DNA of 27,759 nucleotides from Pezizomycotina sp. ARF18 (lineage: Eukaryota > Ascomycota): NCBI GenBank assembly GCA_002224055.1, contig AZLU01000094.1, positions 1 to 27,759 on the forward strand. Direction: 5' to 3'. The position numbers and the translations under genes were made by a program. Of the stretch, positions 2,493-27,759 are shown piece by piece. The notes beneath the pieces were generated by a model. The model was given only the letters and a program-made list of their open reading frames with translations, did not search any database and was not told the origin of the DNA. Position 1 is the stretch's first letter, and every line of letters starts with the position of its first letter.

Positions 2493-3636
2493 ATGCCTGC
2501 CATTCTCCTCCCCCTCACTGCTGCCCCATTCGCTCCCCGGGCCCTCCTACCGTGGTCCTGGACACGACCGTCAACCCGTGGTTAACACAGACCTCAAGCG
2601 CGTCAACCGCCTCAAGCGACCACTCAACAGTGTCCCTCAGCACACGAATGCCTCACAGAACTTCTCTCCGGCCCATCAGCACTCTGGAATCTCTGCAGCA
2701 TCCTGGTACCTCGCGCTCCAGAATCCGAAATCCAGGTCATTCGAACCCCTCTCCGATGCTCTTTCCCGATTTCAATTTATCCACATCCAAGCCTACGTCG
2801 TATCGATTGATATGGTAATGTCGAACGAAATTGCCTACAAGCTAACACCAGAGACGATCTCCAGCCTGGTGGAATACCACAAGGACATTTACATGATCGA
2901 CCAAGCCGACGCTACGTGGCAGTGGACGAGAAGGACGCTGCGGTCAAGACGATGCACGAGGAATTCGTGCAGGCGGTCAACAAGTATGTCTTCCGCACGG
3001 ACAAGGTTGCCCTTGAGGGCATCGAAGATGATGGCTCGGCGAGTTGCTCTGCGGGCAGAGCGAAGAGGTCAGGAATGGCATCATGGGACTCTTCCTTCCG
3101 CTCCTCCCTCCGCCCCCGCGGATTGTGGAAGTCAGGGCTCCTGCTACTCCTACCATTCCTTCTCTCCAGCCACGGCCAACTGGTGGGCGCCGACTCCTCC
3201 GATCAACTCCCAGATTGCCCTCAACCGCCCGTTCTCCCGTCGAACGCTCCGGCGATGACCTCCTCGCCAAGCCCCGTTCCAGTGAACGTGACCGCTGCTG
3301 GTCTCCCAGCACGTGGTCCCTGGTCGATCTTCAGGATGATTTCCAGGACGAGAGCGACTTGACGCCGTCACGACGGCCGCACACACGGCTGCCCTGTCGG
3401 CGTCGGCTTCCTGGTGGAGCGCACCATCACCGAATCACCTCCAGCCTATCCCGCACCTCTCTATGGGGTGCGGTACAACCATAGGCTTCGGTGGTTTTGG
3501 ATGGAAACGCAGAGGTTCGCTGATTTCGCCACTACGGGGATGTGACTACATTCCGCCCCCCGAACCCAACCACTGGAGGAAAGGCACCTCAACGTTCAGA
3601 GAAAACGTGGTGCGTGGACTCTTTCGAATCAGATGA
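2493..3636 (+). CDS. Frameshifted protein, weakly BAG-domain-like
   Basis: This GC-richer block (about 2490-3640) carries coding-like sequence in all three + frames, so the gene is broken or contains indels. I start it at the ATG at 2493 because of its A-rich context after the CT-rich leader; the end is uncertain, and 3636 is the last plausible stop. The most protein-like part runs from about 2820 to 3060. It reads NEIAYKLTPETISSLVEYHK in one frame, then changes frame near 2915 and continues with MHEEFVQAVNKYVFRTDKV, LEGIEDDG and an Arg-rich RRVALRAERR. The pattern of a helix with TDKV, then GI-x-DG, then an Arg-rich helix resembles the end of fungal BAG domains, which bind Hsp70 as nucleotide-exchange factors. 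I am not confident of this. The part from 3060 on is Pro/Ser/Arg-rich and low in information. An unrelated hypothetical protein is the main alternative. Confidence 0.4.
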
Positions 3637-5076
3637 GGAAAACGAGGGTGATTTAAACAATCACAGAAAGCGTCGAAGTTTCAATAAGGTCATCTGGGCT
3701 AAAGGTATTCAATAAGATGAGGGGTTTATTTCATTCGGTATCCTTGGATTTTTCTTAAAAGGTCGTAAGGAAAGGAAAGAGAGGTTGAGTATCCGAACGC
3801 AACAAATCTGTCTGGTACAGTTTTCTTGCCATTTGATCTCTTTGAGCCTTTTTTAACCTTCTTTTTACTTCCCTTTTCGTTTCTTTCAAGCTTATCTTAA
3901 TGGAATCTCTATTCCCTCGTCTAACCTGTTACGCTTTGATGCACATGAATCAAGTCACACTTTCTTTGTATCAATACTGTATTTTTCTTTTACTTTCCTT
4001 TTATGTCTCGGTCTGTTATTTTGTTCCGTCTTTTTAGCGATTGTTTTTCTAGCGAGCGAGTTCTTTGAGTTTTAGCGAGTTTTAGCGTGCATTTTGATAT
4101 TTCCCCCTCCGTTTTTTCTCATCAATATTTTTTCTTTCTCTTGTTTTTTCTCACGTCTCCAAATGCATTTTCATGGGATCTCGGTGTTTTTGTAATTCAT
4201 TGTTAGCAAGCGAGCGATTTCTATATATTTTTTCATGTTTCTTCCCTCTCATGTGCTTTTCCGTTTTTTCCTTTTTTTTTTTTCGGGCCGGTTCTTCCTC
4301 ACTCTACGTGCGACTTCATCATTTCATATATAAACCTTCCCTTCGACTTTGCCCGGCTGCCTGAGTAGTGGGGAATTCCTTTGTTTGTTATGAATTCTCG
4401 AGAGTTACAAAGTCAACATGGACACCGTCAAGAAAAAAAAAAAAAAAAAAAAAGCGGATTGGTATTATCACACGACAAGAAACTCGAATTCGCTCAATTC
4501 GCCAGCACTATCTCGATAATAGGAAATCTGTTTTTCTTTTTCTGTCATCGGATCGCCTTCGATACCTATACCAACCACCAAAAGAGAAAAACCAAGAGAA
4601 AAAAATTCTATAAACCCACTCAAGAAAAAGCTAACTTAAAAAAAATATCACCACACAAATGTAAGAGGGAATACAAAAAGAAAACCTTCAAACACAAAAA
4701 GGGCTCTCGCTTTTTCAACTGGCTTGGAAAAGTGAGGCGGGGCATTTTACATATCGACAACTATAAAAAATTTCAAAAAAATTAATAATTAAAAAATTTT
4801 TCAAACTGTATATAGTATTGAGAGCATGGTTACTCCATTCTGCTCTTGCTCTTTTCTCCTTGTAGTAGCATCAAACTTTGCTCTTATGACGAGGTGATGG
4901 GAAAATGAATATATGGGTAATTATGCCACAAGTAAAGCCTGAGTTTTTCCATGTGTAGAATGCATCGCGATGACTATTAGCTTGTGATTGCTTTCCTTTG
5001 AAAATGTTCCACGTAAGTATATCTGAAGATACTCTCGAGAGACTCATTTCCAGGCATTTATCCCACTCTATCTCAC

Positions 5077-5120
<44 letters not shown>

Positions 5121-5952
5121 TATGGTGCTCATTGGCCGTTGGGGCTTTGTATATCAGTAAATACCTTTAAAAAAAAAGAAAAGAAAAGAAAAAAGGGAAA
5201 AAAAGTCAATATGACGATTTCATGACAAAAGTTCATCCTGCCACTTCACCCAAACGGATCCAAGTTCCCCTCTCCAGCAGACTATTTCGAGCGACTTTCT
5301 CACAAAGAAAAACACAAAGAGCGAAGATCCACTTGCTTTCTGTCAGGTAAAGCAATAGACGCATATAGATAAAAATTCAAAATAACAGTCACTTTTTACT
5401 TGTTATCTAATTTATCCATTTAGTTATTATTATTATTTTCTTACTCTTGTTTCATTTTCGGCTTTTTATTTTACGTGGCCGATGATATATAGATGCATGT
5501 ACGGACGTCGGGGTGGGTTGATTATTATTCCCGCTGTCGCTTTTTTTAATATCCATCAAAAGCACTCCGCGCGGATCCGATGTTCCGAAACCTGTTATCC
5601 TCCCCAATGTCAGTTGAACATTCGATTTTTCTGCAAGGGCAAAACTGTTTCATTAACCTCTTCAACCCCGCCTTTTTCCTTATTCATTTTTCTCTTCTTT
5701 CTGTCTTTCTACTTACTTATTTCCTTGCTTAATTCATGAAGGAAAATACGGTTTCGTCGTAATTTGTTCTCGCGTGTCTCTTGCCTCGGTAAAACTAGCT
5801 ACGTCACTGCACAAAGGGAAGACATTCACCAAAAAAAGTTAGGCTACGAGCTCGCTCGCTACTTTGTCTTCTCGTTCCATCTTTCTGTCTCTCCCTCTCT
5901 CACACATCAGGAAAAAAAAAAAAAGTAAAAAGGTATAAACAACATAATAACG
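3637..5952. other. Spacer between two + strand genes
   Basis: This is A/T-rich DNA with no supportable gene. The 3' side of the first gene (3640-4350) is T-rich, as in a fungal 3' UTR or terminator region. An A21 run lies at 4433-4453. The Lys-rich open frames around it are products of the A tracts. A Cys-containing 85-codon frame at 5482-5739 begins with ATG but shows no family motif and ends in Phe/Leu low complexity. A T20/A24 homopolymer palindrome lies at 5077-5120. The last 100 bases are CT-rich and lead into the next gene. Confidence 0.6.
5077..5120. repeat. T20A24 homopolymer inverted repeat
   Basis: Twenty T are followed directly by 24 A, giving a perfect 40-base palindrome. It could extrude as a hairpin and is a hard template for sequencing. 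The run lengths are probably not reliable in this assembly. Confidence 0.85.
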
Positions 5953-8326
5953 ATGGCCGCCTTACATTCGGCCTTGGCCTCGCTTGCGCCGCTTCGGTTC
6001 GAGGAGCTACCGACGGGCGAACAAAGCTCGCGGAGTTCATACGGAAGGCCTTCGAGGCCGCCGCGCTGGCCGTCGATACCGTGCCCCCTCCCCGCCTCCC
6101 CCGCCTTCGGCACTCCTTACGCCTGCTTCGGCAGCGGCGCGGTCCCGCTCGAATACCGCAAGCTCGCATCCTCGTCCACGCCGTCGCTGGTGAGGACCAG
6201 CCCCGCACGCTCTGCGCCCCCACACCCGGAACGGCAGCGTTGCAGAAGGAGTGGAAGGAAGTGAAAGTGAACGCCGGCCGCACAACATTAAAGTGTTCAA
6301 GCTCAGTTCTCAGGATGGGAATGGGGCGTGGTTCGCTCGACGGAGCGTACACGAGGGATCGGGTTCCGTAAATTTCGGAGGGGCCTGCGGAGGGAATTCG
6401 AGGAGAGCTTGAACCTCGGAGAGGAACAATCTTCCGGAGGTAGTAGTAGCAGTGGTGTCAAACCAGGTGTCAGGGGATCAGGTGCGAAAAGAGGATAGAA
6501 AGGAGAGTCGCCAAAGGCGTTGGTTGCTTGGATATCAACCTCCTATCCGCGCAGTTCCCCGCCGTAAGCGCTCGGGAGTTTGTGGAAGTTTGCATTTCGA
6601 GCGCTGGAGCTCACCGTTCTCCCCGGCCCGGAGAGGAAGCCTACCGCGCTCCGCAAAGTCCCGCGAGTTTACCCTTCTCTCTCGTCCGATACCTGACCAC
6701 CCTGAAGCTCAGCCTCGCGATGGTTCGTTCGCGGTAAGTACGAGTCTGTCGAGTACATCCGCGAAATCCCGCCGAGCATCGTCAAGTCGCGCTCCAGCGC
6801 AAGTTTGCCCGGTTATACGCGCAAGGAATTGAACGAAAAGTCTTCCGGCCCGACGAGGCAGCGGTCCCACACCACCGGCGTGATGCCCAGTAACATTTCG
6901 ATGATGGCCGCTGCCGCAAAAAGAGAGCTGCAGTGTCATCTTCGAAGACGGATCTAAGCCCGGTGTGACGATGATGCGGTGGTGACGATGATGGCGGTGG
7001 CGCTAGTTCCGGAATGGCAAGCCGTCTCAGCACGATACTGTCAAAGAAGAGAGAGGGAAGGATGACTACGATGATAATTATGATAACGACGATAACGATG
7101 ACGACTACGAAGGTGAAGACCCGACGGTGAGCATCCAGTCGAATGGATCATGATCACCAGAAGCGACCCGGGAGGGAGCGTCCTAGGTTTATGGTCGAGC
7201 GGGACACCAGGATCGATCGTCAGCGATGCGGAAAAGTTTCTCAATTGGGCAGTCGAGAAGGAACATCACGACGAGGCTTCGGACGACGAGCTACACCACG
7301 ACGACGGGAACGACGAAGATCGTTCTAACTCTCACATTATCATCAACGATGGCAGCGGCGAGGTTCCCGATACGGCAGATTCAGCGGATACCGCTTCAAA
7401 TTACGCACCGTCGCGGAAAGCAAATAGCACAAAACAGGCAAGCTCCCAGGCCGGGTCAAGCGAGGGCGATGACGATGACGACAAGGACGACGACGATGGA
7501 GACGATACGTCTGTGCTTTCATTCCAGACGGCTTCCAGCGGTGAATCCCACGAGTGTGCTGACGATGACTCGACGGTATCGTCAGCTAATACCGCCTCGA
7601 CGCGCACGGGATCCATGTCCTCTCCGCCAGGTAGACTGTCCACGCACGACCGCACGAACAGCATGACGTCTCTGACCTAAGCCTTCAGCGTCTAGCCACT
7701 GAGAAGATCGCCAAGCAGAGGACCAAGGATCTGGAGAAACAGAAGAAACTGAAAGAGAAGCAGGAGAAAGAAATGGCAAAGGAAAAAGAAAGGCAGAAGA
7801 AGCTCGAAGAAAAGCAAGCGTGAAGCTCTCAGGCGGCAGGAGAAATTCCTCAAGGAGCAGCAGAAAGCGGAAGAGAAGATGCGCCGCGAAACCGAAAAGC
7901 TTAACGAGCGCCAACGCAGGATCGAGCTGAAAGATGCAGAGATTAGGTGGTCCGCCGAGCGCGACGAACTCAAGAGGGGGATCAATAACCTGACGATGGA
8001 GAAGGAGATTATGGTCCACGAGATCGAACGGGTCTCGAAGGAAAGCGGCGAGCAAAAAGCGGAAAGGAGAAGCTGGTTAAGGAAATGGCGGAGCTGAAAA
8101 CGGAAAGGGACCAGTTAATTCAGGAGAATGAACGGCTTAAGAAGGAGGTCGAGATCCTAAAGGTTACGGCGGCGAATAGGAGTAGGGAAGGCAACGTAGT
8201 ATTGGCAATGACGTTCAGGACCAGGTCGCCGCGGGCGCTACCCCGACGCCTCCGGGAAGTAGGAATGGGTCTAAGGAACATCAGCGGGCCGTTGCACGAA
8301 GAACGCATGTGGAAGGGCATAAGTAA
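5953..8326 (+). CDS. DUF3074 (START-like) protein with coiled-coil tail
   Basis: The protein is a fungal DUF3074 START-like domain followed by an acidic linker and a long coiled coil. Domain landmarks occur in the expected order: N-terminus MAALHSALASLAPLRFEELP; then KLAEFIRKAFEAAALAVDTV (about 6020); GNGAWFARRSVHEG (about 6311-6352); LDINLLSAQFP (about 6530); HPEAQPRDGSFA (about 6700); KYESVEYIREIP (about 6736); HPVEWIMITRSDPGGS (about 7132-7179); PRFMVERG; and SIVSDAEKFLNW. These are hallmarks of the family, whose START-like fold is expected to hold a hydrophobic ligand; the ligand is unknown. The linker (7240-7680) is rich in Asp and Ser, and 7683-8160 is a Glu/Lys/Arg heptad coiled coil. 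The start ATG follows a CT-rich leader. The reading frame changes at least 12 times, mostly as if single bases were missing, so I read an intact gene with sequence errors. The stop is taken at 8324-8326. Confidence 0.85.
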
Positions 8327-10017
8327 GACCTAAGAGAGTTGGGGGAAAGGACAACGCTGGCTGCTACAAGGTGACTTATATCATATTTCTATAGCCTTCT
8401 GAAACTGTGATACCATCGATTGTTATTTCTTTGCTTTACATTTGGTATTGTTTTATTCTCTCTCTAGCTTTTTCTTCTTTTTTCTTTTTTTTCTTTTTCG
8501 TAAAGCGCATAGCGGTGTTTGCGTTTTGACAGGACTCTTGGTTTCTTGATCACAAGCGTGTTTTCATATTCAGTTTAACTTGAATCTCTTTTTAATCTAT
8601 ACTTGGAGTTCCATTCGGTTCAGTTCCGAATATATCTTTACATACTTAAGTATATATATTTGGTCTCTCTGTTCTTCCATTTTTTTTCTTTTAATCCAGA
8701 TTTACTCATGTTCTAGCCACATGGAATCGACTGAAGATTGCTTGCTCTCAGCATAAAGAAGTACGTTATTATACTTTGTAGATTGTATATGTATGACAAT
8801 TTGACATTGGTTTCAGTACAGTCTTCCTAACTTGACAACTAAAAGATTAATCCACAATTAAACACTAATATTACTAGTAGAATCCGAATATATTGGAAAA
8901 AAAAAAGGGGGGGGCTTTTTGGAACCGTTATTCTATCTATTATCAGCCTTACAGGCCACCAAAAACGATAACCCTCATGGCTCTGGAAGTTTATTAAAGA
9001 TATTTAAATAAATAAGATATATACATATCAGAGTGTGAGCTGCCTTATTGAGTGAGGTACTACTCCTACTACCCGCCTATCTAGAATAAGCATTATCTCA
9101 CGTTGCACAAAGTTTTTCAGGTTTCTTTGTGGAACATATTTGTGCCACCAGATTAGATTTGTAAAAAACAATATGTACTTGGATATTAAGCTTCCCGTAA
9201 TCTATTTATAAACTCAGAATATATATAAGTATACTCCCGCATTCGTCTTTAGATTCCCGAACTTTGTGCTGTTTAATTTTATTTTATTAGACTTTTTTTT
9301 AACATCTTTTTTCAATATAATTTATCAAATCCGAGAGTTCTTCAATGGCATATGGCAAGAAGAGAGAATAGGATTTGTGGCAGGATGAGATCGATATTTT
9401 TCGAGAAAGGGAGGAGAATTCGTTGTTCATTTATGGGAGCGTGTCGTCTGTATTGGGTCAACTACGAGGCCGGCAGCAATGGTCGTTGTTGAGAATTGGT
9501 GCGAAGAACAAGTATATTTTGATAACGCTACGCCATGATTCAATGATTGATTTTGTCGCACTGATCGAAGATATTCACAAGAAGAAGAAGTAGGAGAAGA
9601 AAGTAGAATACTATGAAAAAGTAGAAAACAAATTACACATAGTAGTAAATATCAAAAGGGAAAATGGTCGACTGAAAGGAAAATATATTCCTCAGAGTGT
9701 GGCTGAACAATTATATATATAACTTATGCATCATCATACAATGGAGGGAAAGAAAATACAATGAAGGGTAATTTGGACCGCTAAACAGACAATAGTTAAT
9801 GAACGTGCATGGATCAGAGCAGGTCGGTCTAACAAGTAATCCTGAAAGAGAAGGTAAGTGGAGAGCGCTAAAAGGTAGACAAAGAGAAACAGACAGGATG
9901 CAATGGCTATGATATCAGGAAGCCGGTGATAGGTAATAAGAACGAACAACTTCTACAGAAAGATAAGGAGCGGGAGAAAAGAAGAAGAAAGAAGAAGGAC
10001 GAAGAAAAAGACAGAGG
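8327..10017. other. Convergent intergenic region
   Basis: This region separates the 3' ends of two converging genes. It is A/T-rich, with T-rich stretches at 8460-8500 on the side of the + gene. On the far side, + strand A/G-rich sequence (9590-10010) is the complement of a T/C-rich 3' region for the - gene. A short open frame at 9375-9593 lacks an ATG start and has no recognisable motif. No gene is supported. Confidence 0.6.
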
Positions 10018-13000
10018 TTATGCTGCTGCTGCTGTGCCAGTGCGTGCGAGGAGGTTCGCTGCGTCTTCCCGAGTCATCGCGTTGACAACCATTTGCCGAA
10101 CTTGGCCGCCACTCTTCAACCTTACCAACCGCCAGGAACCTTCCACCCTTCATCTTCCCCGAATATGTAGAGAACGTTTTTACCTTCTGCGTCCCGGATA
10201 TTGGCCCGCAGAAGGTGTTGACCCTCGAACGTCTTATCGGCAAATTCGAGCGGCTTTGGGAAAGAAGGCAGGAAGAGCGACAGGTCTCGGCAAGTTCTTC
10301 CAGTATTTTATCCTGTTCGGCAGCACTGGGGGCTGAGGACGATGAGAACAGTTGACGCATAGTGGACGTCTTAACGTTCGATTTAGACGTGGCGTACTGC
10401 GGACAAAATGCCTCGATCAGTTTGATCGACCACGCCTTTTGGTCGAACTCTCGTTGCGGCGTCCGGTTGATCTCGTCATCTACGAATAGACCGGCCGTAG
10501 ATATATTGAGAGTGAGGCCATTGCTGTTACCATCTTTACGGCGACGAGGGACGCTTGGGCCTTCCCTCATGACCGTTATATATGTGCACCGCCTTGAGTA
10601 CGATCTTGTTCGGATCCGAGGTCGAGAATCTTTGCTGGGATCTGGCATGTGCGACTGTACGGACGTAGCCAGCGAGGAGGTGGCCGAATCGTTCCTACGA
10701 TGGCCACGATGGGCTGGAACCGGACGATCGTGTCTTCTCGGACATTGCGTCATGGTCGGAATCCACGACTGCAGCAGGAACCCGTTTCTTTGGCTTGTTA
10801 GGCGTGGGCGCGAAGATGGTTGAGATGAGGTTTCGTGGTCTTGGAAGGTAGATTTGGTAGGGGAGGATGTGCTTATGCTCTCCTTGCTTGTGGAGTGAGT
10901 ATGGCGATGGTGGTGCTTCTTGTGGTGACGCTTCGTTGGTGAACTCCTGCGGGACTTGGTGTCTGATGATCTGAATCCAGATCCGCGCTGAAGCGAACGT
11001 TTCGCCACCACCGAGGTCTTTGATAGGTGATGTTTGCGTAGGGCCGTCCAGGTTTCCTTTTGACAGGCTTGACCTCTTTTCGAGATCTTTCTTTTGCCAG
11101 TCCCGCTCGCTTTCACGTTTAGCGCTTTCGATCCTTTGCCTCTCACGTTCTTCCTCCTCTTCCTTCTCTTGCTGCTCTCGTTTCAACTTTTCCTCTGCGA
11201 TTTCACGATCTAATACTTCTTGGGCTAGACGCGCGCGCTCATTGTCCTTTCCAAAGCAGCCAGTATTGCTTGCCTAGATCTTTCTTCTCGCTCATTTTGC
11301 AGTCGGAGCCTCTCCGCCTCCTTTTCTTTCTGGATCTGCATTTCTAGCCTCTCTTGTTCCCTTTTTCTCTTTGTAGTTGTTCTTGCCTCAATTTCTCGGC
11401 TGCTTCGGCTTGTCTTAGCTGCTCGCGTAATCGCTCAGCTTCGAGCTGTTTCCTTAGACGTTCGTTCTCAAGCCGGAGTTTATGGCGCTCTTCCTCTTCA
11501 GTCCGGAGCTTTTCCAACCTAATTAGCTCGTCCTTGGCTTCTCTAGCAGCTTGATCTCTAGCCTTTTGAGCTTCGGCCAATCTAGCGAGCACAGAGAGAC
11601 GTAGAGCCTCTCGTTCAGCTGCAGCTTGACGCTCGGCTTTTCTTTCTCTTCCTTTTCTTTCTTCAACTGTCTCTCGCGCTCCTCCTCAACTCTCTTGCGT
11701 TCTTCCTCCAACCTCTTACGCTCCTCTTCCTCCTGACGCTCGAGCCGCGCCCTGGCCGCAAGCTCTCTTTCTTCAACTCCCTTTGCAATGGCTAGGCGTT
11801 CTCTCTCGGCTACCTCCCTCTGCCGGAGTTCCCGTGCTCGTTGCCTCTCAAACTCAGCCTTCTCTTTCTGCGAATCTCTTCCTTTTTGCGCGCATATTCT
11901 TCGTCCCTCTGTTTCTTTTCGGCAGCGAGTCTCTCCTTCTCTTGACGGATAGAATTTTCGAGCTTTCTATGCGCCTCCGCAAGCTCGGCCTCCTTTTTAG
12001 CCGCCTCGCTCCTGGCGTGGGATTCCCGAACCTCTTGCTCCTTAAGCTTTTCTGAAAGAACGTTGGACTGTTTTTGTAGGTCGTCGTGCGTTCTTTGGAG
12101 TTCAACCTCGATCTTTCTCCTTTTCTCTTCGTCGGCCTTGATACGCCTCGCCCATTCGGCTTCAGCTTGCAACCTCTCCTTTCTAAGCTGTTCTTCTAAA
12201 GCTCTCCTTGCTGCTTCTTCCGCCTTCATCCTCATTTTGAACGCTTCTTCATCTTGCGGGCGCGTTCCGCCAACTCCGCTTCTGTCTGTGCTCGTTTTTT
12301 CGCAGTCTTTCTTCTTCCGCCTGCAGCTTGAGCCTGAAAGCTTCTTCGTTCTTCCTGGCGCGTTTCGCTGCTTCCGCTGCCTCCGCTTCTGCCTTGGCCT
12401 TCTTCTTAGCAAGTTCAGCTTCCTCCGCTTCTGTCTTAGCTTTTTTCCTGGCCAATTCAGCTTCTTCAGCTTCTCGCTTTTTCCGAATCCGCTCCTCTTC
12501 CGCCTGTAGTTTGCGTTTGAACGCCTCCTCTTCCTCTTTGAACCGCGCTCCTTTCTGTTTCCTCCTGGCGACGTTTCTTGGCTTCGGCTTGCCGTTGGGC
12601 TTCTTCGGCCTGCCGGTGAATTTCCGCGGCCTGCCGTTTAGTTTCCTCTGCTCGCCGTTTCACTTCTTCCGCTTGGCGCTGGGCATCGAGCTGTCGCTTT
12701 AATTTTTCCCGCTCGTTCTTCAGCCTCTCCTTTTCCGCGGCCAGCGTCTGCTTCTCAGCGGCCAGCGTTTCTTCTTCCTGGGCGCGTTTGTATTCCTCCT
12801 CTGCGGCCGGAAATCTTCCTCGGCAGCAGTGGGCTGGGGATCATGCGGGCGACTCTGAGTGTTCCCTTTGGTCGACCTCGAGGATTTCGATGAAGAAGAC
12901 GAGGAGGATGAGCGATCGCCTGCCGGGGGCCGGCCGTTAGCCGTATTGTTACGTGTACCGCCGGCGCTCTTATGACCCGCAGTGCCGTTAGCACTCCCGC

Positions 13001-13426
13001 CCGCAGGGGAGACTTTCCGGGCTTGCCCTTAGCGTCGCCGTCGCCGTCCATTCCAAATGAACGCGAAGAAGCCGGACTTTTGAAGCCAAAACCCGGTGAA
13101 CACTGCCAGCGTAGCTACCCACAGCATGCCCGTCGCGGAGAGGTTTGCCTGAGGACAAGGTCCCTAAGCAGCCAGCAGACTAATTGCACGCCTACCGTCG
13201 CGCCGACACCCAGCAGGAATGAGTGCCTCTCCTGTTGAAGGCCGGGAGGTTAAATGATACCACCGCCGGCCGGGACCACGAAGACATCGACGTGCTGCGG
13301 CAGATTTGGGTTGCGAGGCTTCGGCGGTGTTCCCGAGGTTGTTTTGGCGTTCTCGTCGTGCTTGGGGGGAGGCGGCGGCGGCGCGTCATCGTCGTCGTCG
13401 GACACTGGACTCGCTCTCGGGCCCAT
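10018..13426 (-). CDS. Membrane-anchored long coiled-coil protein
   Basis: I start at the ATG at 13426-13424, which directly follows an in-frame TAG. The order on the - strand is: an acidic, Pro-rich N-terminus (MGPRASPVSDDDDDAPPPPP); VDVFVVPAGGG; a hydrophobic helix HSFLLGVGATVGVQLVCWLL (about 13230); a second, MLWVATLAVFTGFWLQ (about 13110); a Ser/Gly-rich linker; then about 1.7 kb of Glu/Lys/Arg/Ala-rich coiled coil (about 12800-11100) with repeats such as AEEAELAKKKAKAEAEAAE. A basic His-rich linker (KKHHHRHTHS) follows. The C-terminal region looks folded, with VLKAVHIYNGHEGRPKRP, NGLTLNISTAGLFVDDEI, GQHLLRANIRDAEGKNVLYI and GEDEGWKVPGG, and the end reads QMVVNAMTREDAANLL before the stop at 10018. 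Two membrane helices plus a long rod suggest a tether or scaffold; this is inference. The frame changes about ten or more times. I do not recognise a named family. Confidence 0.75.
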
Positions 13427-13769
13427 CTACAAGGCAGCAAGTAACCTAGAAGGGAAGTTCTGTTGATGTGCTCCCAGTTTCTCTCTTCCACTCTTCTCCC
13501 CCTTTACTATAGCCCTGTCGTAGTCATTAAAGGTGTTAGACTTGCGGTGACGGTAAACATATACAAGAAGCTCAAGACTAAAAAAAAAAAAAAATTGAGC
13601 ACGCACAAGGTCGCAATTGATCCGCCGTCCCGAGTTCACGTTGTCATGCGAAACCTGAAATTTGAAGAGTGTTGAGGTATTTCTGCGCTTAATATCGCGG
13701 CGGCCGAACAAAAAGAAATCAACGCCAAATAGAAGGTCCGGAGAAGAATGCAATATCAATAACTTTAAA

Positions 13770-13771
<2 letters not shown>

Positions 13772-13803
<32 letters not shown>
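13772..13803. repeat. T32 homopolymer
   Basis: Thirty-two consecutive T on the + strand, about 350 bases upstream of the coiled-coil gene start. It is the longest homopolymer I found in the window. Confidence 0.9.

Positions 13804-14700: not shown

Positions 14701-14702
<2 letters not shown>

Positions 14703-14746
<44 letters not shown>
14703..14746. repeat. AAT trinucleotide microsatellite
   Basis: An uninterrupted AAT/ATA repeat of about 14 units in non-coding DNA. It is a candidate length-variable locus. Confidence 0.9.
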
Positions 14747-15020
14747 CTAATAAACGGGTGATATAGAATAATAACTAGTTAGAAATATACTTCAGAAAGA
14801 ATTAATAATATAATCTTTCGTGTGTGCCTCTATTTTACTTAGTCAATATACAGTAGAGTAAGTATTTATTCAAGTATATTGAGGTATTAATTATCAGAGC
14901 AAAGTGACTGACTATTCACTCTTAAGTATTCCTTTCCCGCAAGCTAAGGGAACCTTTTGACGTGTCAAAAAAGAAAGAAAGAGAGAAAAGGATAGAATAG
15001 GGAAAAATAATTCTTTCCCC

Positions 15021-15057
15021 TTTTTTTTTTTTTTTTTTTTTTTTTTTCTCTTTCTCT

Positions 15058-15089
<32 letters not shown>

Positions 15090-15136
15090 TCTCTTGCTTC
15101 CCCCCCCCCCCCCCCCGTTGTCCGTTGTCCGTTGTC
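15021..15136. repeat. Compound pyrimidine tract: T27, CT repeats, C17, GTTGTCC repeats
   Basis: The order is T27 (15021-15047), then CTCTTT and CT repeats to about 15090, then C17 (15100-15116), then three near-copies of GTTGTCC (15117-15136). About 70 bases are pure pyrimidine on one strand. Mirror-like homopyrimidine tracts can form triplex DNA; that is general knowledge, not shown here. Confidence 0.9.
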
Positions 15137-17212: not shown

Positions 17213-19662
17213 TTACAGCCCTTCGTTCAAGGGACCACCCGTAGTGGAAACTGGGCGCTTCCTGACCGAACCCTTGCGAGGCGGTGGTGCTGCCGCATCG
17301 GAGGACATTCTCTGTTTTCCTTTGGGATCTGTAGGTCGGAGGATAACAAATATAAGTATGCATTATATATATATCAATCCAGGTTCAGGTTTTTATTTTG
17401 CGAAAATTCATAATCTCTCGTCTCCTCTTTGACTATGAATAATATCTAACGCCTTTCCTAATTGTGATTCTAATGCATTGCGTGGTACTATTGTTCATCC
17501 GGACCAGGGGAAGAGGGAAAAAAGGGGGGGAAAAGAATAAAAGATAGAGGAACAAAATGAGAAATCATAAGGAGAAACTCGAGAAGACATGGATATAGGC
17601 GAGACGAACAAGGAATGATAGCAAAGAGTACAATAATAATATAAAGTATAGGATCTCTCTTTGGGATACAAGATAAGCTAAGATTTTTGTTCCATTATAT
17701 GCATGATTGGGGGCGAACGGGTCCCCCAGGACATGAAATTACTGGGTTCTCGAGTGTTATTCTGGGATTTTGAATTGTTAGGGGATCCTCCGGAACAAAA
17801 AAAAAAAAAACGAAGGGAAGAAACCTTAGATACTCATGACTTTATAAAAAGAAAATGACGAAAAAAGCAATAGAGTTACAACAACAGAAAGAGAGTCGTA
17901 AACAAAGCATGTAGATTTGAATCGTTCAAGAATGATTGATGGCGTTCTTAACTCTTTATACATGGCCATTTTTCTTGTACTTTTTGTCTTCCGATATTCC
18001 CCTGCTGAGCTCTTCGATGACCTTTCCAAATGCTTCACCGGTCTCGTGCCCATACGCTTTTCAAAGGTCATCAGAATAAATGCTCTAGTAGAAATTTGAA
18101 GGAAGACGGAAGGAGATGGAAAGAATGGCAAGACAGGAAAGGTAGCTAATTTTTCCCCCGACGTATATCCCTTTTTCGTGCATATATTTTAGAATGGATA
18201 AGTTTGAAAGTTTTAACGCTTACCTCCTACTGCTTTTCCGATACTCATGTTGCGGACCTGATCCTGAAGGGAATCGATAGTCTTCATCTGGTCGTAATAA
18301 AGCCTCTTAACTTTGTCGTATTTGAGCTTCAGGATTTCGTCGGTGTAGCCGGCGCCGCCTTGCGCGCCGGCCTGATCCTTCGCCGTTACGGGCGCAGACC
18401 TTCTCTTGTCGACGCCGTTGCCTGAACCTGCTGGTGCAAGGCGTTGACTTGATCTTCGAGATCCCGGATGCGGCTCTGAAGACGATCCCTTTCCGCCTTG
18501 GCATTTTCTCGTTCAGCCGCCGCCTCTTCCCGTTTCTCGTTGACGGCGTCTTCCTTAAGACGGGCGATAGCGTCCTTCTCCCGAACGACCGCGTCGCGCT
18601 CGCGCATAATAGCATCCTTCTCCCGGATGATCGTGTCCCGTTCCCTTTTGATGGCGTTGAGTTCTCTGCTGTTCAAATCTTGTTCCGATCTGAGAGCATC
18701 CCTGTCCTTCGTGAGAATGTCGAGGTCGCGCAACAGGTCGTTGCGCTCAGCTTGCAGAACCTCGACGTCCTTGGTAAGATCTTCTACCTGCTGTTCGCGC
18801 TGGAAATATAGCTTCTTCACTTTGGTGTATTTGGTAGTCAACGCTTCGAGATCCTGGACGGCGCTTGCGTTATCGTTCTCCGGAGGCCTGGTGCGAAGCT
18901 GTAGAGTGCAACAAGAAAAACAATTACGTTAGTGGGGGAAAAAAAAAAATCTCTTATTACTTCTGCCGCGAAAGATCAAAGAAGATCAAAGGGAAAAAGA
19001 AAAAACAGAGGTTTCATCTTCCGCTACAGGAAAATCACGCCTGCCGCTTCGCGATCACTAACATCCTCGTTTTCGGCGTTCAGCCGTGAATTTTCCGATA
19101 GTAGAGAGGTCAGTTTCCCTTCAAGTCTCTGATACTCGTTCATGAGGCCCTGGAGATAATCCGCAGCGGATTCCAAGATGCCATCGTTATCGTCCTCGGC
19201 GCTGTAGTTTTGTTGCTGTTGCTGCTGCTGGGCCAATGCGCCGCCGGTGGCGGCGGCAGAATTTCCAACCCCAGAAATTTCCCCCTCTGGAGCGCCCAGT
19301 TGATCACGGCCGTCATCGTCGACGTTTGCCGCTGGCGGTTGTTGAGTCGAAGACATCCTGCGACGACCTAGTCTGACGGAGCCGTTGTGAATTCGAATTC
19401 CTGATAACTCGAGGGTTAGACACGGTGGTTGATTCGGAACCACGGCCCTTGAAATCTAACGGAGACGACGACGACGGATTGGCGAAGTCTGCCGAGCGTT
19501 GGGGCCAATCGGCAATGGTGTCCGGGAAGGCGAATCCGGGTTGTGGTGCAAAGTGAAAAGAGGGATCAGGAGGGCCCCCTGCGTCTTCTCCCTCTTTAGT
19601 AGGATCAGTTAAGATCAACAATTCGTGCGTAGATTTTCGAGGTGAATTGGGTTTATAAGAAG
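17213..19662 (-). CDS. Spliced coiled-coil protein (5' exon missing)
   Basis: An exon opens after the acceptor TTACAG at 19662 and reads SYKPNSPRKSTHELLILTDP, later FPDTIADWPQRSADF and RLRQTRSSQD. It then shifts frame near 19350 to STQQPPAANVDDDGRDQLG, a poly-Gln stretch and NEYQRLEGKLTSLLSENSRL. Intron 18899-19062 joins NAENED to LRTRPPEN in phase. The next exon (18898-18224) is coiled coil: ALTTKYTKVKKLYFQREQQV, then repeats of the type RERDAVVREKDAI, one frameshift near 18420, and LKLKYDKVKRLYYDQMKTID. Its donor G|GTAAGCG is phase 1, as is the acceptor at 17328, which gives the tail DPKGKQRMSSDAAAPPPRKG ending at 17213. That last intron is 895 bases long, unusual for a fungus, and may hide another exon. 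An ATG at 19356 is an alternative start. I recognise no named family; a scaffold role is inference. Confidence 0.7.
18899..19062 (-). other. Intron in the coiled-coil gene
   Basis: A GTTAGT donor after codon GAT and a CTCTACAG acceptor flank 164 bases in phase 0. Splicing turns two truncated frames into a continuous heptad segment (NAENED joined to LRTRPPEN). Without splicing the frame runs to a stop shortly after the donor. Confidence 0.75.
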
Positions 19663-20156
19663 CTGTAATATGTTTAAATCTCGAATAAGCTTAATTGAGG
19701 CGTGCTTATTATACTCTCTTTTTTTTTTTTTCTTTTCTTTTCTCCTGGATAGTATTGATATTGTTATTAAAGAAATATAGGTTGATAGATTAATTCCTTT
19801 GTTTTTTCTTCCCCCTAATTTCCTCTTTTTAATTTCGAGTACGAAGAAAAAAAGCACATATCCCTGGGCTCCTTGAAAAAAAAAAAAAAAGAGGCAATAA
19901 GGATATAAAGTAAATAAATAGCCAATTACTTATAATAATACCGTAAAGTCGAATTGTCGAACAGAACAATCTAGTTGGGCTTAAACCTGCTAATTTGCTT
20001 GCACGTACAGAGAGAGAGAGAGAGGGAAAGAAAAATGAAAAGGAAAGGTGTACGGATTAAAAAAAAAAAGGAATTAGTACCAATAGGAAAAAAAAAAAAA
20101 AGGAAATTCTGAGAATAATTCAACCGGTCTTATATTAGATGCTTGCTGCTGCTGCT

Positions 20157-20192
<36 letters not shown>

Positions 20193-21133
20193 GATATATA
20201 TAATACGGGGAATAGGATAGGATGTATTGTATTGCACTTGTTACTTCCCAGCCACCAACATTTAGAAAGAAGTACCTTTGATTGTATTGAACTTGAGTGT
20301 GTGCCTGAAAAGAAAGAAGGCTGGTAAACACTACTAAATAATAATAATACCGTATCGACAATTATCGCGCAAACGACAAGGATATAAAAGCAAGTATCTG
20401 CGAATATTATTGTGATTTTCTCGTGCAGAACCATTTTCTTCTCCTTGTCATACACCTCAGATGATTACTTATTCTAATTCTATATAATAAATAACATTAT
20501 TATTCTAATTCTCAAGTATAAATCCGTTTATATATATATATATTTGGCTATATACCAATTTATTCTGCTGTCCGAGAAGAAGAAAAAAGGAAGAGAAAAA
20601 AAAATATGAGCGGCTCTATCGGAGGAAAATTACAAACGCCAGATCGAAAAGGTTTCGGACAGTTTGGACGGCTCAACTGCCCATTGCAGCTTCGCTACTC
20701 TACCACGGCCCCCAGGACTTGCCGATGTTGATAACTATAGCTTACTTGGTAGGTAGCGAAATTGGGAGATATAATAATAAGTAACAACGAAGGCTAACCA
20801 AACTCACCCTTTGTATTTAGTAGAAACTATATAATAAACATTAACACCTAAACCTAGAAAATATTTTTAAACGTGAACCTCTTTCCATGTACCAAACTTA
20901 AATCCAACAGAAAAAGACCAATAAAATTTGCGCATGGTGTTACAAGGTTTTTGTTTCATTTTCCTATTCCATCACAGAAGTTTCAAAGACCCCCAAGCAA
21001 AATAGCACGCTCCTATCAAAGGTTTGTTATTTTATTTAAAAAAAGAAAAGCAAAGCAAACGTCGCTAGCATCCAGTGCTAGGTCTAAGCGAGGAAATACT
21101 GATAAAAGCAAGCTACCGCTATGAAAAATCAAT
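19663..21133. other. Spacer; should contain the missing 5' exon
   Basis: This is A/T-rich DNA with a T30 run (20159-20188) next to a GCT repeat and many A runs. The coiled-coil gene that enters at 19662 through an acceptor site needs an upstream exon somewhere here, but I could not identify it. A GC-richer island lies at about 20606-20745. Confidence 0.5.
20606..20745. other. GC-richer island with a 41-codon open frame
   Basis: In a strongly A/T-rich spacer, about 140 bases have clearly higher GC. On the + strand an ATG at about 20606 opens MSGSIGGKLQTPDRKGFGQF and stops after 41 codons. On the - strand no long frame is present. It could be the missing first exon of the neighbouring - strand gene, a small gene, or a non-coding RNA; I cannot decide. 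Confidence 0.3.
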
Positions 21134-22631
21134 TTAATGCTCTACTTTGGTTGAAGTAGAATTTCCCTGTGAATACCAAGGGTGGTGACGCTTACTGAGA
21201 GGGCTCAGCATACCGCCCTCTCCAAAGTCGCCTTCAAGGACCATGACCTGATCATCCTCGTCGGGAAAAAATTGCCGATTGTCATCGTAATTGTTTTCTA
21301 CGATAAAAAGTATCTGCATTAGCACTAGCTTGTCAAGAATTTAGGAGCAGTAAGGTTATAAACTTTTTGATATAAGAAAGGAAGGAAGGAAAGATATTCC
21401 TGCCGGGAGCTCACCAATAAGGGACGGATCAATATTCCTAAGCAAGTGATCATTAGACGAAGGGTTTTCGGGAAACATCCCCTCGCGCTTTCGGTGCCTC
21501 TGAGGCTTGGGCAGTCCCATATAGGTTGTCAATTTCGGTCTGCTCCACCCCATGGCCTCGCTATCGCCGTAATCATCTTCGGCTTCCTCTTCCTTAAAAT
21601 CGGAAGAAAGTTTCTTCCTCGTGATATTCGGTGTTTCTGTTGACGGGCCTTAGCCCTTTCGGAACGGTGGTTTGATTTATATCTCTATATTGCAGAATTT
21701 TAGAATGAAAATCCATAATAGCACATAGCAGATGGACGGAATACGGGGTTTTTGGACGTCAGGTACTTACCGAAAGGAGGGACCAGGGATCATGGATTGC
21801 AACGCCAAACTCGCTCTCCTTAAGGCTTGTTATCACAAACCCCTTACAATTCTTGAGTGAAAAAGGGAGCATTAGCTTTTTTGAAATTAATAAATATATA
21901 TATATATATATATTATCTTTTCTTTTTTATCTGGAGAAAGGGATTTGTGAAGCAGCGGACTGCGATATTAAGAGCTATCTCATGAGCTCACCTCGGCTAC
22001 CATAACCAAATCTGCCAACTTCTGCTCATAGGATGAGATCGATTTGACCTTTGTTTTCTTAGGCCGCATACTAAAAGGTAGTTGCTCTTGAGAATAAAAG
22101 CCTTTCACTGGGGCTTTTATAGAACGAGTGGTGTTAACTCTTGTCTCTCCATTTCGACCTAAGTAAAGAAAGACGGGAAAGAAAAAGTTTAGTGAGTGGA
22201 CCAAGTCAAGTCAAATGCTGAAATGACAGCAAGGGAGTCCCCTTCTCTCTTTTCCTCAGGGAAAGCAGTGTTGTTGTTACTTACAGCCCACTTCCAAGCA
22301 CTGCTGATGAACATATCGTCAGTTATGCTTTGGAATTGCTGGTGAACCGTTCCATTATCCCTGTCGAGGGAATATGCCACTTCTTCATGGCTGGAACAAG
22401 CGTGTTGACCGTGTTCTGCATCCTTGCACATCGAAACCTTTGCTCACGAATGTGCTGCAGTATGGAGGCCTGGTTGCTCAGTCCGAAAGCGTTTACGGAA
22501 TCTACGCGGTTCCTAGCATACGTTGAGGAAAAACCTTCGTTTTGGCAAGCTTTGGCATTAATTGAAACGCCGAACTTCCATGCAAGTTTGAAGAATTGCA
22601 TAAGACTCTAGCGGAGACATCAGCTTATGGA

Positions 22632-22664
<33 letters not shown>

Positions 22665-22985
22665 GGAGAGAGAGAGAGAGAAAAAGTTTGACGATTTGGA
22701 CTCAGGAAAGTGCTTACCAGGGTGTCGTTTCCCGACATATTCAAGCCCCAACATTGCGGAGATATTTAATCAACTCAGTTTCGATGTCGATTTCTGGAGC
22801 GACGCCAGTACCTATGAAATTGGCCAGCATCTCCTGGATCTGAAACAGTAAATCCTCCAGCGATGGCGCCGTTAACCCCCTCATGAGGACGATGTCATAG
22901 AAGGTCTTTTCTGTTATCTCGGGAAGTATGTTTACACCGACAGACCGGCGGCAAAGAGCGCCTGGAGGTTTAGTTCTCCGGCCAT
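21134..22985 (-). CDS. Six-exon gene of unknown family
   Basis: The start is the ATG at 22985-22983 (MAGELNLQALFAAGLSV). One missing base then leads into NILPEITEKTFYDIVLMRGL, LEDLLFQIQEMLANFIG and LEYVGKRHP. Proposed exons are 22985-22718, 22607-22285, 22158-21992, 21825-21771, 21682-21415 and 21297-21134, all with GT donors and AG acceptors. Exon 2 holds MQFFKLAWKFGVSINAKAC and, in another frame, TDDMFISSAWKWA. Exon 3 holds FYSQEQLPFSMRPKKTKVKS and EQKLADLVMVAE. Exon 4 gives ALRRASLALQSMIPGPSFR, which joins YKSNHRSERAKARQQKHRIS. The last two exons join in phase to give LLRNIDPSLI and ENNYDDNRQFF, and the protein ends STSTKVEH. The tail is acidic and likely disordered, while the N-terminal half is helical and looks conserved. 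Some junctions do not agree in phase, which fits the indels seen elsewhere. I do not recognise the family; basic clusters suggest a nuclear protein, as inference only. Confidence 0.6.
21298..21414 (-). other. Last intron of the six-exon gene
   Basis: The donor GTGAGC follows ATTG, and the acceptor TATCGTAG precedes AAAACAATTACG. Removing the 117 bases keeps the frame and yields PSLIENNYDDNRQ. Both flanking segments are coding-like, so this is the best supported splice in the gene. Confidence 0.75.
22634..22681. repeat. T15A16 inverted homopolymer plus GA repeat
   Basis: Fifteen T, sixteen A and then a GA repeat lie inside the proposed first intron (22608-22717) of the six-exon gene. It is the second T-to-A homopolymer palindrome of the window. 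Confidence 0.85.
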
Positions 22986-23700
22986 AGTGTCTACTCTTCG
23001 TCAAATTTCTTTCTGTCTAATAGAAAGGCGACGAAAGAAAGGAAAAAAGGGAAGGTATTGATATATAGAATAGGGGCGGACGTAAGAAGGGTGAATGTTA
23101 TCAAAAGCAGATCTTTGTCTCTAAGTTGACCTATGTGGACTCTTGTGGAAAAAGTAGGATGATGGAGGGAAGAAGGAAAGGAAATAAAATGAGATGGAAA
23201 GGACATTATTTATAGGCATCACTGTGAGTGAAATTATCTTGAAGAAATTATTCGAATATTCAATACAAATCCAATGGCCCGGAGATAGATTTTCTTATTG
23301 AAAGAAATATAATTTCTTCGATGAGTTTCGGTGACGCTGTGAGGTAAGTGAAGTCAACTATTTTTTTTTTTCTGTCCACGATAGTATTGTCCGCGAAGTT
23401 TATTATTGAATAGCAAGCCAGAGCTGCACGTGCTACCCCCTATGCGTTGGAAGATCGCAACAATCGTAAGGAATTCAAAAATGAGTTCAGTCGGTAAATA
23501 ACAATGCTTGGGGCAATAGGCTGTCCCCTTACAAGAACATCACTCAGAGGATATATAGAACCTTCAGAGGATTTTGGTTTTAAAACTAAAATCAGCCCTC
23601 AAATTTGATACTGTAGCGCATGAAACTTACAAAATATCAGTCTCTACTACATCCGATATTGATATATCACTTTATAGCTCTGCTAAATGCACGAGGAATT

Positions 23701-23766
23701 TATAAGGGTCAGAAATTCCACTTGGAGACGCCTTATAAGGGGCAGAAATTCCACTTGGAGACGCCT
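23701..23766. repeat. 33-base tandem duplication
   Basis: Two adjacent 33-base copies (23701-23733 and 23734-23766) differ at one position, the ninth base (T versus G). The unit begins TATAAGGG and contains AAATTCCACTTGGAGACGCC. Confidence 0.9.
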
Positions 23767-23804
23767 TTGAAACTGGTAGTAGCTACTAACACATAATTGG
23801 CAAT

Positions 23805-23836
<32 letters not shown>
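23805..23836. repeat. AC/AT dinucleotide microsatellite
   Basis: About nine AC units pass directly into about seven AT units, in non-coding DNA. Confidence 0.9.
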
Positions 23837-24074
23837 CGTAGAGAATATCCACTATTGAAGTACAAACATATATTTAATTGATTAATCGCGCTATGCTGAC
23901 TGTCAGAGGATATACAATGACCTTCAAGACGATATGACTTTGTATAAATATTTAGAGTAAAAATCGTGGTGTAGAACATGTCGTACAGGGGGTATTGTCG
24001 CATTGCAGCTTACTTTAAAAAAAGAGGAGAAAATGAGAGAAGTAAAATGACGACGCTATTTCTTTGCTGAGAGC

Positions 24075-26104
24075 TCAGCTGGGCCCTGATTCCATCATTG
24101 TGACAGTGCCATTTGGGAACACCGTTAGTGCCTTCGTAAAGTCGCCTGCTTCAGATCCAGCAAGAAAACCGAAGCGAACATAGAGTTTCTCCCGTTCTCT
24201 AATCTTGCCCTGATCGCGTTTCTCTTGACCCGAGCCGCTTTCGTCGTCACTACTAGCAGGCCCAGCCAAGAAGAGCCTGTTGTGTGCTATCGTCTGGACT
24301 AGCTGATGTATTCGGACTTTCTTCCTTGGACTGGTCGCATGATGTCAGAGAGATTGCGTCTCTCGATAACAAAGGAGTACTCGTTCCACGGTACTTCTCA
24401 CATCGTTCACAAGAACGGATACGGAATCCCATGGCCATTGGGGTGCCACCAGATACCGTCACATTCGTAGCACCAACGGTAACGTTCTTCACAGACGGAA
24501 GTGCAGAAAACTGAAGCCCGTCTCCATGAGGTCTTTATCGGTCTGAAGGATGCTATCCCAACCCCATCTGGCAAGCCGTTGATGAAAAGACCAATAAGAA
24601 GCCTTGCCAACGAGCGACGGCCTCGTCTGCATCCTCGTTCCTGGCAGAAAAAGCAGGGCAAGGATGTAATGGTGTATACGAAGGGAGAGATTGGGAATCG
24701 CCTACAAAAAGCAGAGGACCAATCCCATGCACCGTAAAGGGCAAATATCTCGGGCATCGTGCCTTGAGCCGGATGTGGAGCGCTTGCACTACGGCAATCA
24801 CAAGGAGCAGGGTGATAATTATGGCCAGCGCAGCTTTCGCACAGGCTGCTGCTCCAGGTCGCGAGGCGTCATCGCGAAATTGGAATTACAACGGTCGAAG
24901 GTATAGTTGTTAAGAGCACCAAACCAAACGCTCCCAGCAGATCGTTTCTCGATCTGGGCATCGAGTCCCATCAGCGTGGGACGAATGATCCACCTCTCCA
25001 GAACAACAGCCGTGAAGCGGTCGGCAGGAACCGGCCCATGATAATCGAAACGAGCGTGTACGGGTCGGTCGCAAACGGAGGATCCGTGCCCATCCCGTTG
25101 GAACCAGACGGAACAGAAAATAGAAGCGAAAACACGTCGGGCTGGTGTCAAAAGAGATACGAGAATATTGAACGTCAGGGTAAGCCAAAAGCTGTCCATC
25201 GCGATATCCGAACACTTGCTAGCGGAGACGCCTTCGAACGTGTAGAGATGGAAAAGCGGCGTCAATGCACCGAGCCTATGCCATTTGAGAGCGAGTTTAC
25301 AAAAGAGGATTGCGTCCCCGTGTACACTAGCTTGCCGCAACCACCCACGCTATCTTGATGACCCCAGCGTGGATGGCGGCCGGGCATATGAAGCTGTCGG
25401 CTCTGTAATGTCGCGTCTCTGGATCAACATCTGGCGACGGTAGGCCCCTCCAATGACATAGGGTTGATAAATAACCTCCTGGTCGCCGACAGCTCTGGGG
25501 TTTAGAACCTGTTCCGTTCCGCAGTTGCCCGGGCACCGAAATATGAAAGACGAGTTCGAAAATGGTCTACAGTCCATGCCGTCCAGCGAGCATTGATTGT
25601 TTTTATACCTAGAAAGTTGAAAGTTGAAAGAAAGAAGAGGAAGCACAGCTCAGCAACAAGTAAAAGAATAAATAAAACGAGATGCATCGTGCCTGCTTTT
25701 GAAAGGACTAACCATAAAGTACTCCCGCAACTAAGCTGTACTGACTTTTCTCCGGTGAAGCGATAAAAATGCTCCACCATGACGAAGGAGAACAGCCAGC
25801 AAAAACATCCGAACAGCCATAACCACATCCTATGCCTTCTCTTGGGAAGATATCGATCCAGTAGAGCCAGAGGTAGGTTTGAACGCGAGGAAAGAGCGGC
25901 TGGATTTGTGAACTACCGGCGGCCGTGGTCCTTTAACCCATTCCAGGATTTTATTCTTCCATAGTTGAAACCTCGCCGTTCCCCTAAGTAAACGGGACGC
26001 AAGGGAGGCGAGGGCTCCTCGATGGAAGGCGAATAACTGGGGGATGGCGGAAGGCCATACTCGGGGTCGTCATTTCCAACACCGATGGTGTCTAACCGGA
26101 CCAT
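24075..26104 (-). CDS. LCCL-domain multi-pass membrane protein
   Basis: The start ATG at 26104 gives a Pro/Ser-rich cytosolic-looking N-terminus (GLPPSPSYSPSIEEPSPPL). Next come FTNPAALSSRSNLPLALLDR and a first membrane helix (MWLWLFGCFCWLFSFVMVEH). Intron 25609-25712 leads into the LCCL domain, with Cys-rich NNQCSLDGMDC, FRCPGNCGTEQVLNP, ADSFICPAAIHAGVI and DSVGGCGKLVYTG. These match the LCCL signature (FxCPxxC, then SxICxAAIHAGV, then GGxG). The downstream part has several hydrophobic segments, for example AALAIIITLLLVIAVVQALH, plus LNNYTFDR, LIGLFINGL and repeated NVTV. It ends with LYVRFGFLAGS and a stop at 24075. This matches the fungal LCCL membrane-protein architecture. LCCL domains are extracellular or lumenal; the function of the fungal members is unknown. 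The frame changes at least eight times, and one in-frame TAG lies near 25913. Confidence 0.85.
25609..25712 (-). other. Intron in the LCCL gene
   Basis: The 104-base intron has a GTTAGT donor and a CTTTCTAG acceptor after a CT-rich stretch. The split codon TG|G restores Trp in the sequence LWYKNNQC, so the phase is exact. Confidence 0.8.
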
Positions 26105-26677
26105 TACCAGTAGGTAGGAAGCCGAGTAAGCCTAGATAGGGTCTGTGGAACGACGATGCAAAAAGTACAAAGTTGGTGCGAGGTAAAATTGAGGTGGATA
26201 GTGGCGGGGTAAATATAGAACAGCGAAGTTGATTTCGATATATAGAGATAATAATCTCTAAGAAGAGAAGACGGCCCTTTTCGAGTCGAGTCAGGTTCTA
26301 GTACTGATGTCTGTATACAGCCGGAAGTTGCTTCTCAGCGGAAATAAAAGAATGGAGAATAGTCGATAGCTTCTTCGTCTTTTGCTTAAGCTGCTGTACA
26401 TTAATTAAGTCTGCCCCTTTCGATGAACCGGTCTGGGAGGTCGATGTAACGTGTGTTGTGTGCCCTGCATAAGCAAGTACAGGACAAGAAAATAACCCGT
26501 ATAAAATAGAAATAGAAATAACCCTGCGTATTTTTGCCACTGCGATAGGCAGGCGCAGGAGTAAATAAATAAAAGGCGGTTGGTTTCAGTTTTTCCCGGA
26601 TGTGGCGGATACGTGTGTACCGGTATCAGTCGCACTTTTTTTGTTTTGCCTAGAGGCCAGAGCCCATAGGTACTAAG

Positions 26678-26745
26678 TAGGTAGGTAGGTAGTAGGTAGG
26701 TAGGTGCCTATAGGTACGTACCTCTACTACCTCTACGGTCTACCG
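26678..26745. repeat. TAGG tandem repeats with an inverted partner
   Basis: Several TAGG units (26678-26705, with one TAG interruption) are followed by TACCTCTACTACCTCTAC, so the segment can partly fold back on itself. TAGG/TACC repeats of this kind are frequent in intergenic DNA of some Sordariomycetes. Confidence 0.8.
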
Positions 26746-26780
26746 ACTCTACCCCAAGTTTGCCGATAACGCCACGCCTT

Positions 26781-26804
26781 CCCACCCCCACCCCACCCCC
26801 ACCC
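26781..26804 (-). promoter_or_regulatory. G-quadruplex motif
   Basis: On the + strand there are five C runs of 3, 5, 4, 5 and 3, each separated by a single A. The - strand therefore has five G runs with one-base T loops, the most stable class of predicted quadruplex. It lies between two divergent genes, about 680 bases from one start and 375 from the other. Regulation is inference. Confidence 0.8.
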
Positions 26805-27179
26805 TCTTCACTGGGAATTTCCACCCTTTTGCTTTTTTTTTTTTTTTTTTTTTTTTTTTGAGATCGCTAATCTTGAAGCTTCTACCCCTTTTTTTATCCA
26901 CTTATTATCTAAAGTAGTTAAGTTATACCAATAATAATAATATCGCCTATTCATCTATCCTTTAAAGCTTCCAAGTAGTAAAGCTGGATGGTACAGACAC
27001 CTGTTTCGTTCCGCGTTCTCTTTTCTTTCCTTAGTCAACGTTTTTAGGAGATTGTAGGCATCGAAGTAACTAAGTATTCCCTACTACTTTTTTTTTTTTT
27101 TTTTTTTGCGGAAAGAAGCTCGTCCGTGATGGTCTAGCAGATAGTTACGAAGTGAGATACCCTCTGAAAAGGTCGCGCG

Positions 27180-27759
27180 ATGTCCGCAACCACACGAGAT
27201 CACGAAACCGACCGCTCTGGAACGGAAAGCCGCCACAGGAACGGCCCGTAGAACGAGGAGGAGGAACCTCTCGTTTCAAGAGGCTCCTTGAGGAGGAGCA
27301 CTACGAAGAGAGTAACCTGATGGGAGCCGTGAACACGACACTCAAGGGTACGACCACGATGACCACCGATGTTGACAGCACGGACTTGGAAGAGGAGGAT
27401 GAAGAGGGCGAGGTTTCTAGAACAGGGAAGCCCGGCTTATGGTCTGGATGTTGAGTTTTACAAGTGGAAACTCGGCCTTTTATTCGGCTTTGACACCGCG
27501 ATCATAAGCTCCCGCCCTGCTGTCGCTGTCGGATCCTCCCCTGGCTCAAGCGTTTCCAGCATTATCTACGTCAGAGAAGTCGCTCGTTACGTCGATAACA
27601 TCCATCACCGCCCTCATCGCTTCGCTAGCTTCTGGACCGCTGTGCGATGCCGTTGTCGAAGGAAAACGATATTCCTGGCGGCTCTCGTCTTCAGTATTGG
27701 CGCCATATGGATGAGTTCGCCCAAAGCGTTGGCGTCTCGTCTGCGGCGTGCTGTCGTGG
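27180..27759 (+). CDS. MFS sugar/inositol-type transporter, N-terminal part
   Basis: This is the 5' end of a major facilitator superfamily sugar porter, cut by the window edge. I start at the ATG at 27180 (MSATTRDHETDRSGTESRHR). The ATG frame shifts near 27245 into an acidic cytosolic tail (TDLEEEDEEGEVSRTG). Then LMVWMLSFTSG leads into LGLLFGFDTAIISS, the first transmembrane signature of sugar porters. SEKSLVTSITSITALIASLA and SGPLCDAV form the second helix and the start of the loop motif, which continues in another frame as RRKTIFLAALVFSIGAIW. The DxxGRR-type loop is split by a frame change near 27650. The closest architecture I know is the fungal myo-inositol transporter group, but the substrate cannot be read from this fragment. 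At least five frame changes are present, mostly consistent with missing bases. Confidence 0.8.

Follow-up and report, generated by a model that had tools for sequence, protein, structure and literature searches.

The window, by which we mean the whole 27,759-nt stretch of DNA analysed here, makes up positions 1–27,759 of contig C94 (150,719 bases) in an assembly of 46.36 Mb and 408 contigs. When it was scanned with Pfam in three frames per strand, leaving out the − strand of 1–9799, the + strand of roughly 9003–9799 and the last 58 bases, DUF3074 (PF11274) alone scored above cut-off, at 60.4 bits (gathering score 27.5). The match covers profile positions 77–185 of 185 (E = 2.8e-16; E = 7.8e-16 in a further scan), is the single one located genome-wide and has 10 stops within the matched stretch. 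DUF3074 is absent from all 14 prokaryote control genomes, and we take it to be a fungal family. Its presence agrees with a fungal source for the assembly, as do the intron-sized gaps in HSP70 and CCT genes and the spread of 5S rRNA genes across contigs (both below), and such a source is very likely. The gene is listed in Table 1 with the other features of the window.

Table 1. Coding stretches and domain matches in the window
Feature	Position	Strand	Basis
Coding stretch, no family assigned; 6 frame changes called by the model within 654 bases	2781–3434	+	Frame model
DUF3074 (PF11274) gene, first to last landmark	5953–8159	+	Pieces in all three + frames
Longest part of the DUF3074 gene that codes in a single frame (about 460 bases)	7204–7665	+	Landmark from 7204; frame-model segment 7218–7665
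Coding stretch with 6 model frame changes	11436–12912	−	Frame model; + strand pyrimidine-rich (skew profile)
Coiled-coil-like coding stretch with one model frame change	18248–18901	−	Frame model
Possible LCCL domain, two pieces in different frames	25354–25577	−	Pfam, both under cut-off

Elsewhere in the window, two ORFs of the first coding stretch gave a sole weak Pfam match, LIM_bind, under the cut-off (E = 0.064), and the ORF at 18389–18928 gave 34 weak matches, mainly coiled-coil, of which the best was TPR (E = 1.9e-5, 25.3 bits, cut-off 27). The two LCCL pieces, at 25354–25416 (E = 0.00046, 20.8 bits, cut-off 22.6) and 25464–25577 (E = 0.029, 15 bits, likewise under cut-off), are separated by a gap that could leave room for a short intron. 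None of these weak matches (LCCL, LIM_bind, TPR and other coiled coils) was relied on, nor were those to Orf78, Holin_BhlA, PBP1_TM, Flavi_capsid, TetR_C_29, TFIIF_alpha and Peptidase_S64. Between 11001 and 13000 the strands are asymmetric, with AT skews of −0.50 and −0.54 and GC skews of −0.27 and −0.17, consistent with purine-rich coding sequence on the − strand. A-rich or T-rich stretches at 1181–1226, 1698–1748 and 1892–1954 have matches at numerous sites of the genome, on either strand, and look like simple repeats rather than a mobile element. Nothing in the window reached an Rfam gathering score, and most of the sequence from 13 kb to 27.7 kb held no gene recognisable by the Pfam scans or by the codon-usage frame model described below.

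The DUF3074 gene cannot be followed in one frame. Sixteen peptides picked by eye along its length (13 from the ORF list and 3 read off the DNA) have start positions whose remainders modulo 3 run 1,0,0,2,1,0,2,1,2,2,1,0,1,0,1,0. The frame changes at 13 of the 15 steps between these landmarks; 10 steps correspond to one base lost and 3 to one gained or two lost, and the remaining 2 leave the frame unchanged. An earlier note on this DNA had counted 12 steps (10 with one base lost, 2 with two lost or one gained, none unchanged), and its claim that the frame shifts with a bias towards loss is borne out, with 10 of 13 changes being the loss of one base here and 10 of 12 there. The GTCCT that it had pointed to near 7181 stands at 7180–7184, where the landmark frame does change. 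At 9 of the 13 changes (7 losses and 2 others), the neighbouring landmarks overlap or lie no more than 21 bases apart, so that no intron fits, and at the other 4, gaps of about 70–370 bases make an intron possible. The pieces of the gene scored by Pfam share a single frame (remainder 1) and are separated by stops, and Pfam alone is therefore no demonstration of the shifts.

A frame model trained on the codon use of this genome, which places breaks approximately, called 24 frame changes in the 4,893 bases of the window that it labelled coding, or one per 204 bases, and 75 in 14,164 coding bases of HSP70 and CCT stretches, or one per 189. Simulated intact coding sequence (72 kb) gave 0 changes, and simulated genes gave 277 in 70,965 bases at 0.5% errors (one per 256) and 420 in 69,159 bases at 1% errors (one per 165), in a control built from the model's own codon counts and hence favourable to it. 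Losses make up 59 of the changes in the HSP70/CCT stretches, with 16 others, and 14 of those in the window, with 10 others. The model is insensitive: it labelled nothing as coding in 2 of 12 HSP70/CCT stretches (on C24 and C20) and treated 6282–6725 of the DUF3074 gene as non-coding. In the window it found coding stretches that keep one frame for 448 and for 479 bases, and it did not call the longest stop-to-stop frame there (409 amino acids; 9953–11182, − strand) coding. Homopolymers are not enriched around the 99 model breaks (mean longest run 2.67, compared with 2.76 in other coding DNA), in a test for which the breaks are roughly placed and each loss makes the run that it falls in shorter.

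Frame breaks of the same kind occur on other contigs, where HSP70 and CCT genes are broken into series of adjoining pieces that lie in differing frames. Our count used 68 of 71 rows, excluding 3 on C44 and C10, and comprised 13 loci and 55 junctions, with a few of the pieces overlapping or nesting. At least one frame break with no room for an intron is present in 12 of the 13 loci; for the thirteenth, which has none, just two pieces were found. No intron fits at 33 junctions, of which 25 correspond to one base lost and 8 to two lost or one gained (p = 0.002; among these 8, two bases are lost net in 6). The absence of any frame-keeping junction among the 33 tight ones is partly by construction, as pieces in the same frame are reported as one match. 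The other 22 junctions, with net gaps above 30 bases, are likely to mark an intron or a missed piece; 14 of them change frame, and 9 have a net gap of 56–88 bases, a size typical of fungal introns.

Untranslated sequence shows the same losses. The assembly has 15 5S rRNA hits (L071–L085) scattered on several contigs, and 11 of these were compared by counting from the printed alignment, after L082–L085 had been set aside beforehand as divergent or partial. The 11 copies fall into two main sequence types plus one variant (L078). Comparison within types shows, over some 1,320 bases, 13 losses of a single base and 1 gain, or about 1%, and 12 of the 13 losses lie in runs of at least two bases, compared with a background of 39% (p = 1e-4). 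Losses or gains affect 7 of the 11 copies, and 4 have no loss at all. Substitutions were found in L078 (2) and L080 (3) and may be real variation; some of the losses could be real as well, given that L080 also carries its 3 substitutions and that 4 of the 11 copies are free of losses.

A direct comparison of two copies of one sequence comes from C50, a contig of 231,088 bases that is probably mitochondrial (L041, L059, L060 and L066). It carries 33 of the 54 tRNAs among the matches listed, has 26% G+C in the aligned stretches and has tRNAs with the anticodon TCA, labelled SeC by ARAGORN, at 5 places among the 11 loci scanned; a TCA anticodon read as Trp is expected in a fungal mitochondrion. 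The start of C50 recurs towards its end, offset by about 215.4 kb, in a BLAST match that extends to the last base, as in a circle assembled beyond its closing point. The contig is thus likely to be an untrimmed circle of about 215 kb, which is large for a fungal mitochondrion. Two stretches of the overlap were compared under three alignment scoring schemes. Under every scheme, the 3,078 aligned columns of C50:3687–6732 and C50:219081–222151 contain 34 single-base indels and 0 mismatches; one copy lacks 29 bases and the other lacks 5. Of the 34 indels, 29 lie in runs of at least two bases, which make up 57% of the bases (p = 4e-4). The second pair, which reaches the contig's last base, has 63–65 indels and 5–7 mismatches in about 1,805 columns, with 59 of 65 indels in runs of at least two (again, 57% of bases). 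MAFFT gave 33 and 50 mismatches for these pairs by turning nearby gaps into mismatches, and its counts were rejected in favour of the 0 and 5–7 given by BLAST and the three schemes. Were the two copies a genuine repeat, one would still not expect them to have diverged almost entirely through indels.

Several biological explanations can be set against these observations. Real pseudogenes in a decaying region would account for the broken frames of the recognisable genes in the window, and yet the HSP70 and CCT genes on other contigs are broken likewise. Because essential chaperone genes can hardly nearly all be dead, decay is excluded as the general cause. Natural decay also adds substitutions, and the first C50 pair has indels only; the hallmarks of decay, substitutions alongside indels and the sparing of essential genes, were not found. 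We therefore regard pseudogenes as very improbable, and their dismissal in the earlier note is upheld by the broken chaperone genes and the organellar copies together. Spliceosomal introns in place of errors are a comparably improbable cause. They have room at the wide HSP70/CCT junctions, including those in the typical size range and those that change frame, and at 4 of the DUF3074 landmark changes. The 33 tight HSP70/CCT junctions and the 9 tight DUF3074 changes leave no room for them, and introns, although they account for part of the frame changes, do not account for the pattern and are excluded as its sole cause.

Programmed translational frameshifting would make shifted genes normal. Euplotes ciliates shift frame by rule in translation, at AAA-TAA or AAA-TAG, and have, as the present assembly does, genes in shifted frames genome-wide; the recognisable genes here also retain their motif order across the shifts. 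Against such a mechanism, the 5S rRNA genes and the organellar copies carry the same losses, and translational frameshifting is no explanation for the former, which are untranslated. AAATAA or AAATAG was found within 12 bases of 0 of the 99 model breaks, with 0.0 and 0.1 expected by chance at these approximate positions. Nor did the breaks reveal a convincing shared shift site: the commonest enriched 4-mers exceed background about twofold, enriched 5- and 6-mers rest on few cases, and all k-mers were picked from many. In affecting 5S genes, in offering no shared site and in differing between copies of one sequence, the breaks are unlike those of Euplotes, and we consider a mechanism of this type even less probable than decay or introns. 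The same very low standing is given to the idea that the species tolerates dense true frameshifts in its genes, to which the errors seen elsewhere merely add. Indels with few or no substitutions between the C50 copies fit neither decay, nor programmed frameshifting, nor introns.

We conclude, with a probability of about 0.97, that the frame breaks are consensus indel errors in a draft assembled from unpolished long reads, and they are very likely a technical fault that runs through the whole assembly and is not peculiar to this locus. Breaks occur genome-wide and include essential genes, untranslated sequence is affected likewise, indels far outnumber substitutions between compared copies, and homopolymers are favoured, though not around the model breaks. 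Points that speak against this explanation are the modest excess of losses in the model's calls for the window, the one chaperone locus with no tight break, the 5S losses that could be real and the 5–7 mismatches of the second C50 pair. In this explanation the consensus would retain about 0.5–1% single-base indel errors, mainly losses in short one-base runs, each of which would shift the frame of the gene struck, giving about ten breaks per 2-kb gene.

The earlier note had proposed unpolished long-read sequence with a deletion bias, and this proposal is supported by the HSP70/CCT genes, the 5S rRNA genes and the organellar copies, although it had overlooked introns. Its statement that breaks fall on both strands agrees with the frame model, which called 17 changes on the + strand and 7 on the − strand of the window. 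Three further statements hold in part. That every gene is split is true of the recognisable genes, to which the statement is confined and few of which are seen between 13 and 27.7 kb. The deletion bias is clear in the landmarks, the HSP70/CCT genes and the 5S copies and weaker in the frame model's calls for the window. The placing of breaks in short homopolymers is confirmed between compared copies, 5S and organellar, and is not seen around the 99 model breaks in coding DNA.

The error source appears to be long reads, and we lean modestly towards PacBio continuous long reads over nanopore, because the C50 copies show hardly any substitutions and A/T runs as long as 33 bases persist in 77.5 kb of nuclear DNA. 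Older nanopore data shorten long runs. A study of unpolished long-read assemblies (PMC12007338, Kastor) describes long-read errors that are mainly short homopolymer indels and, in a nanopore assembly, deletions that follow runs of two to eight bases. The present assembly resembles the cases described there in its short indels tied to homopolymers and in its many seemingly frameshifted genes. It differs from them, as far as that text goes, in that the genomes there are small and mainly sequenced by nanopore, whereas here a 46-Mb draft, probably fungal, has very few substitutions.

The overlapping ends of an organellar contig provide a built-in error gauge for such a draft. Gene predictions, pseudogene counts and gene-loss claims drawn from this assembly would not be reliable, and it would be a false positive in screens for frameshifting or fast decay; in the organism itself, the genes are most probably intact.
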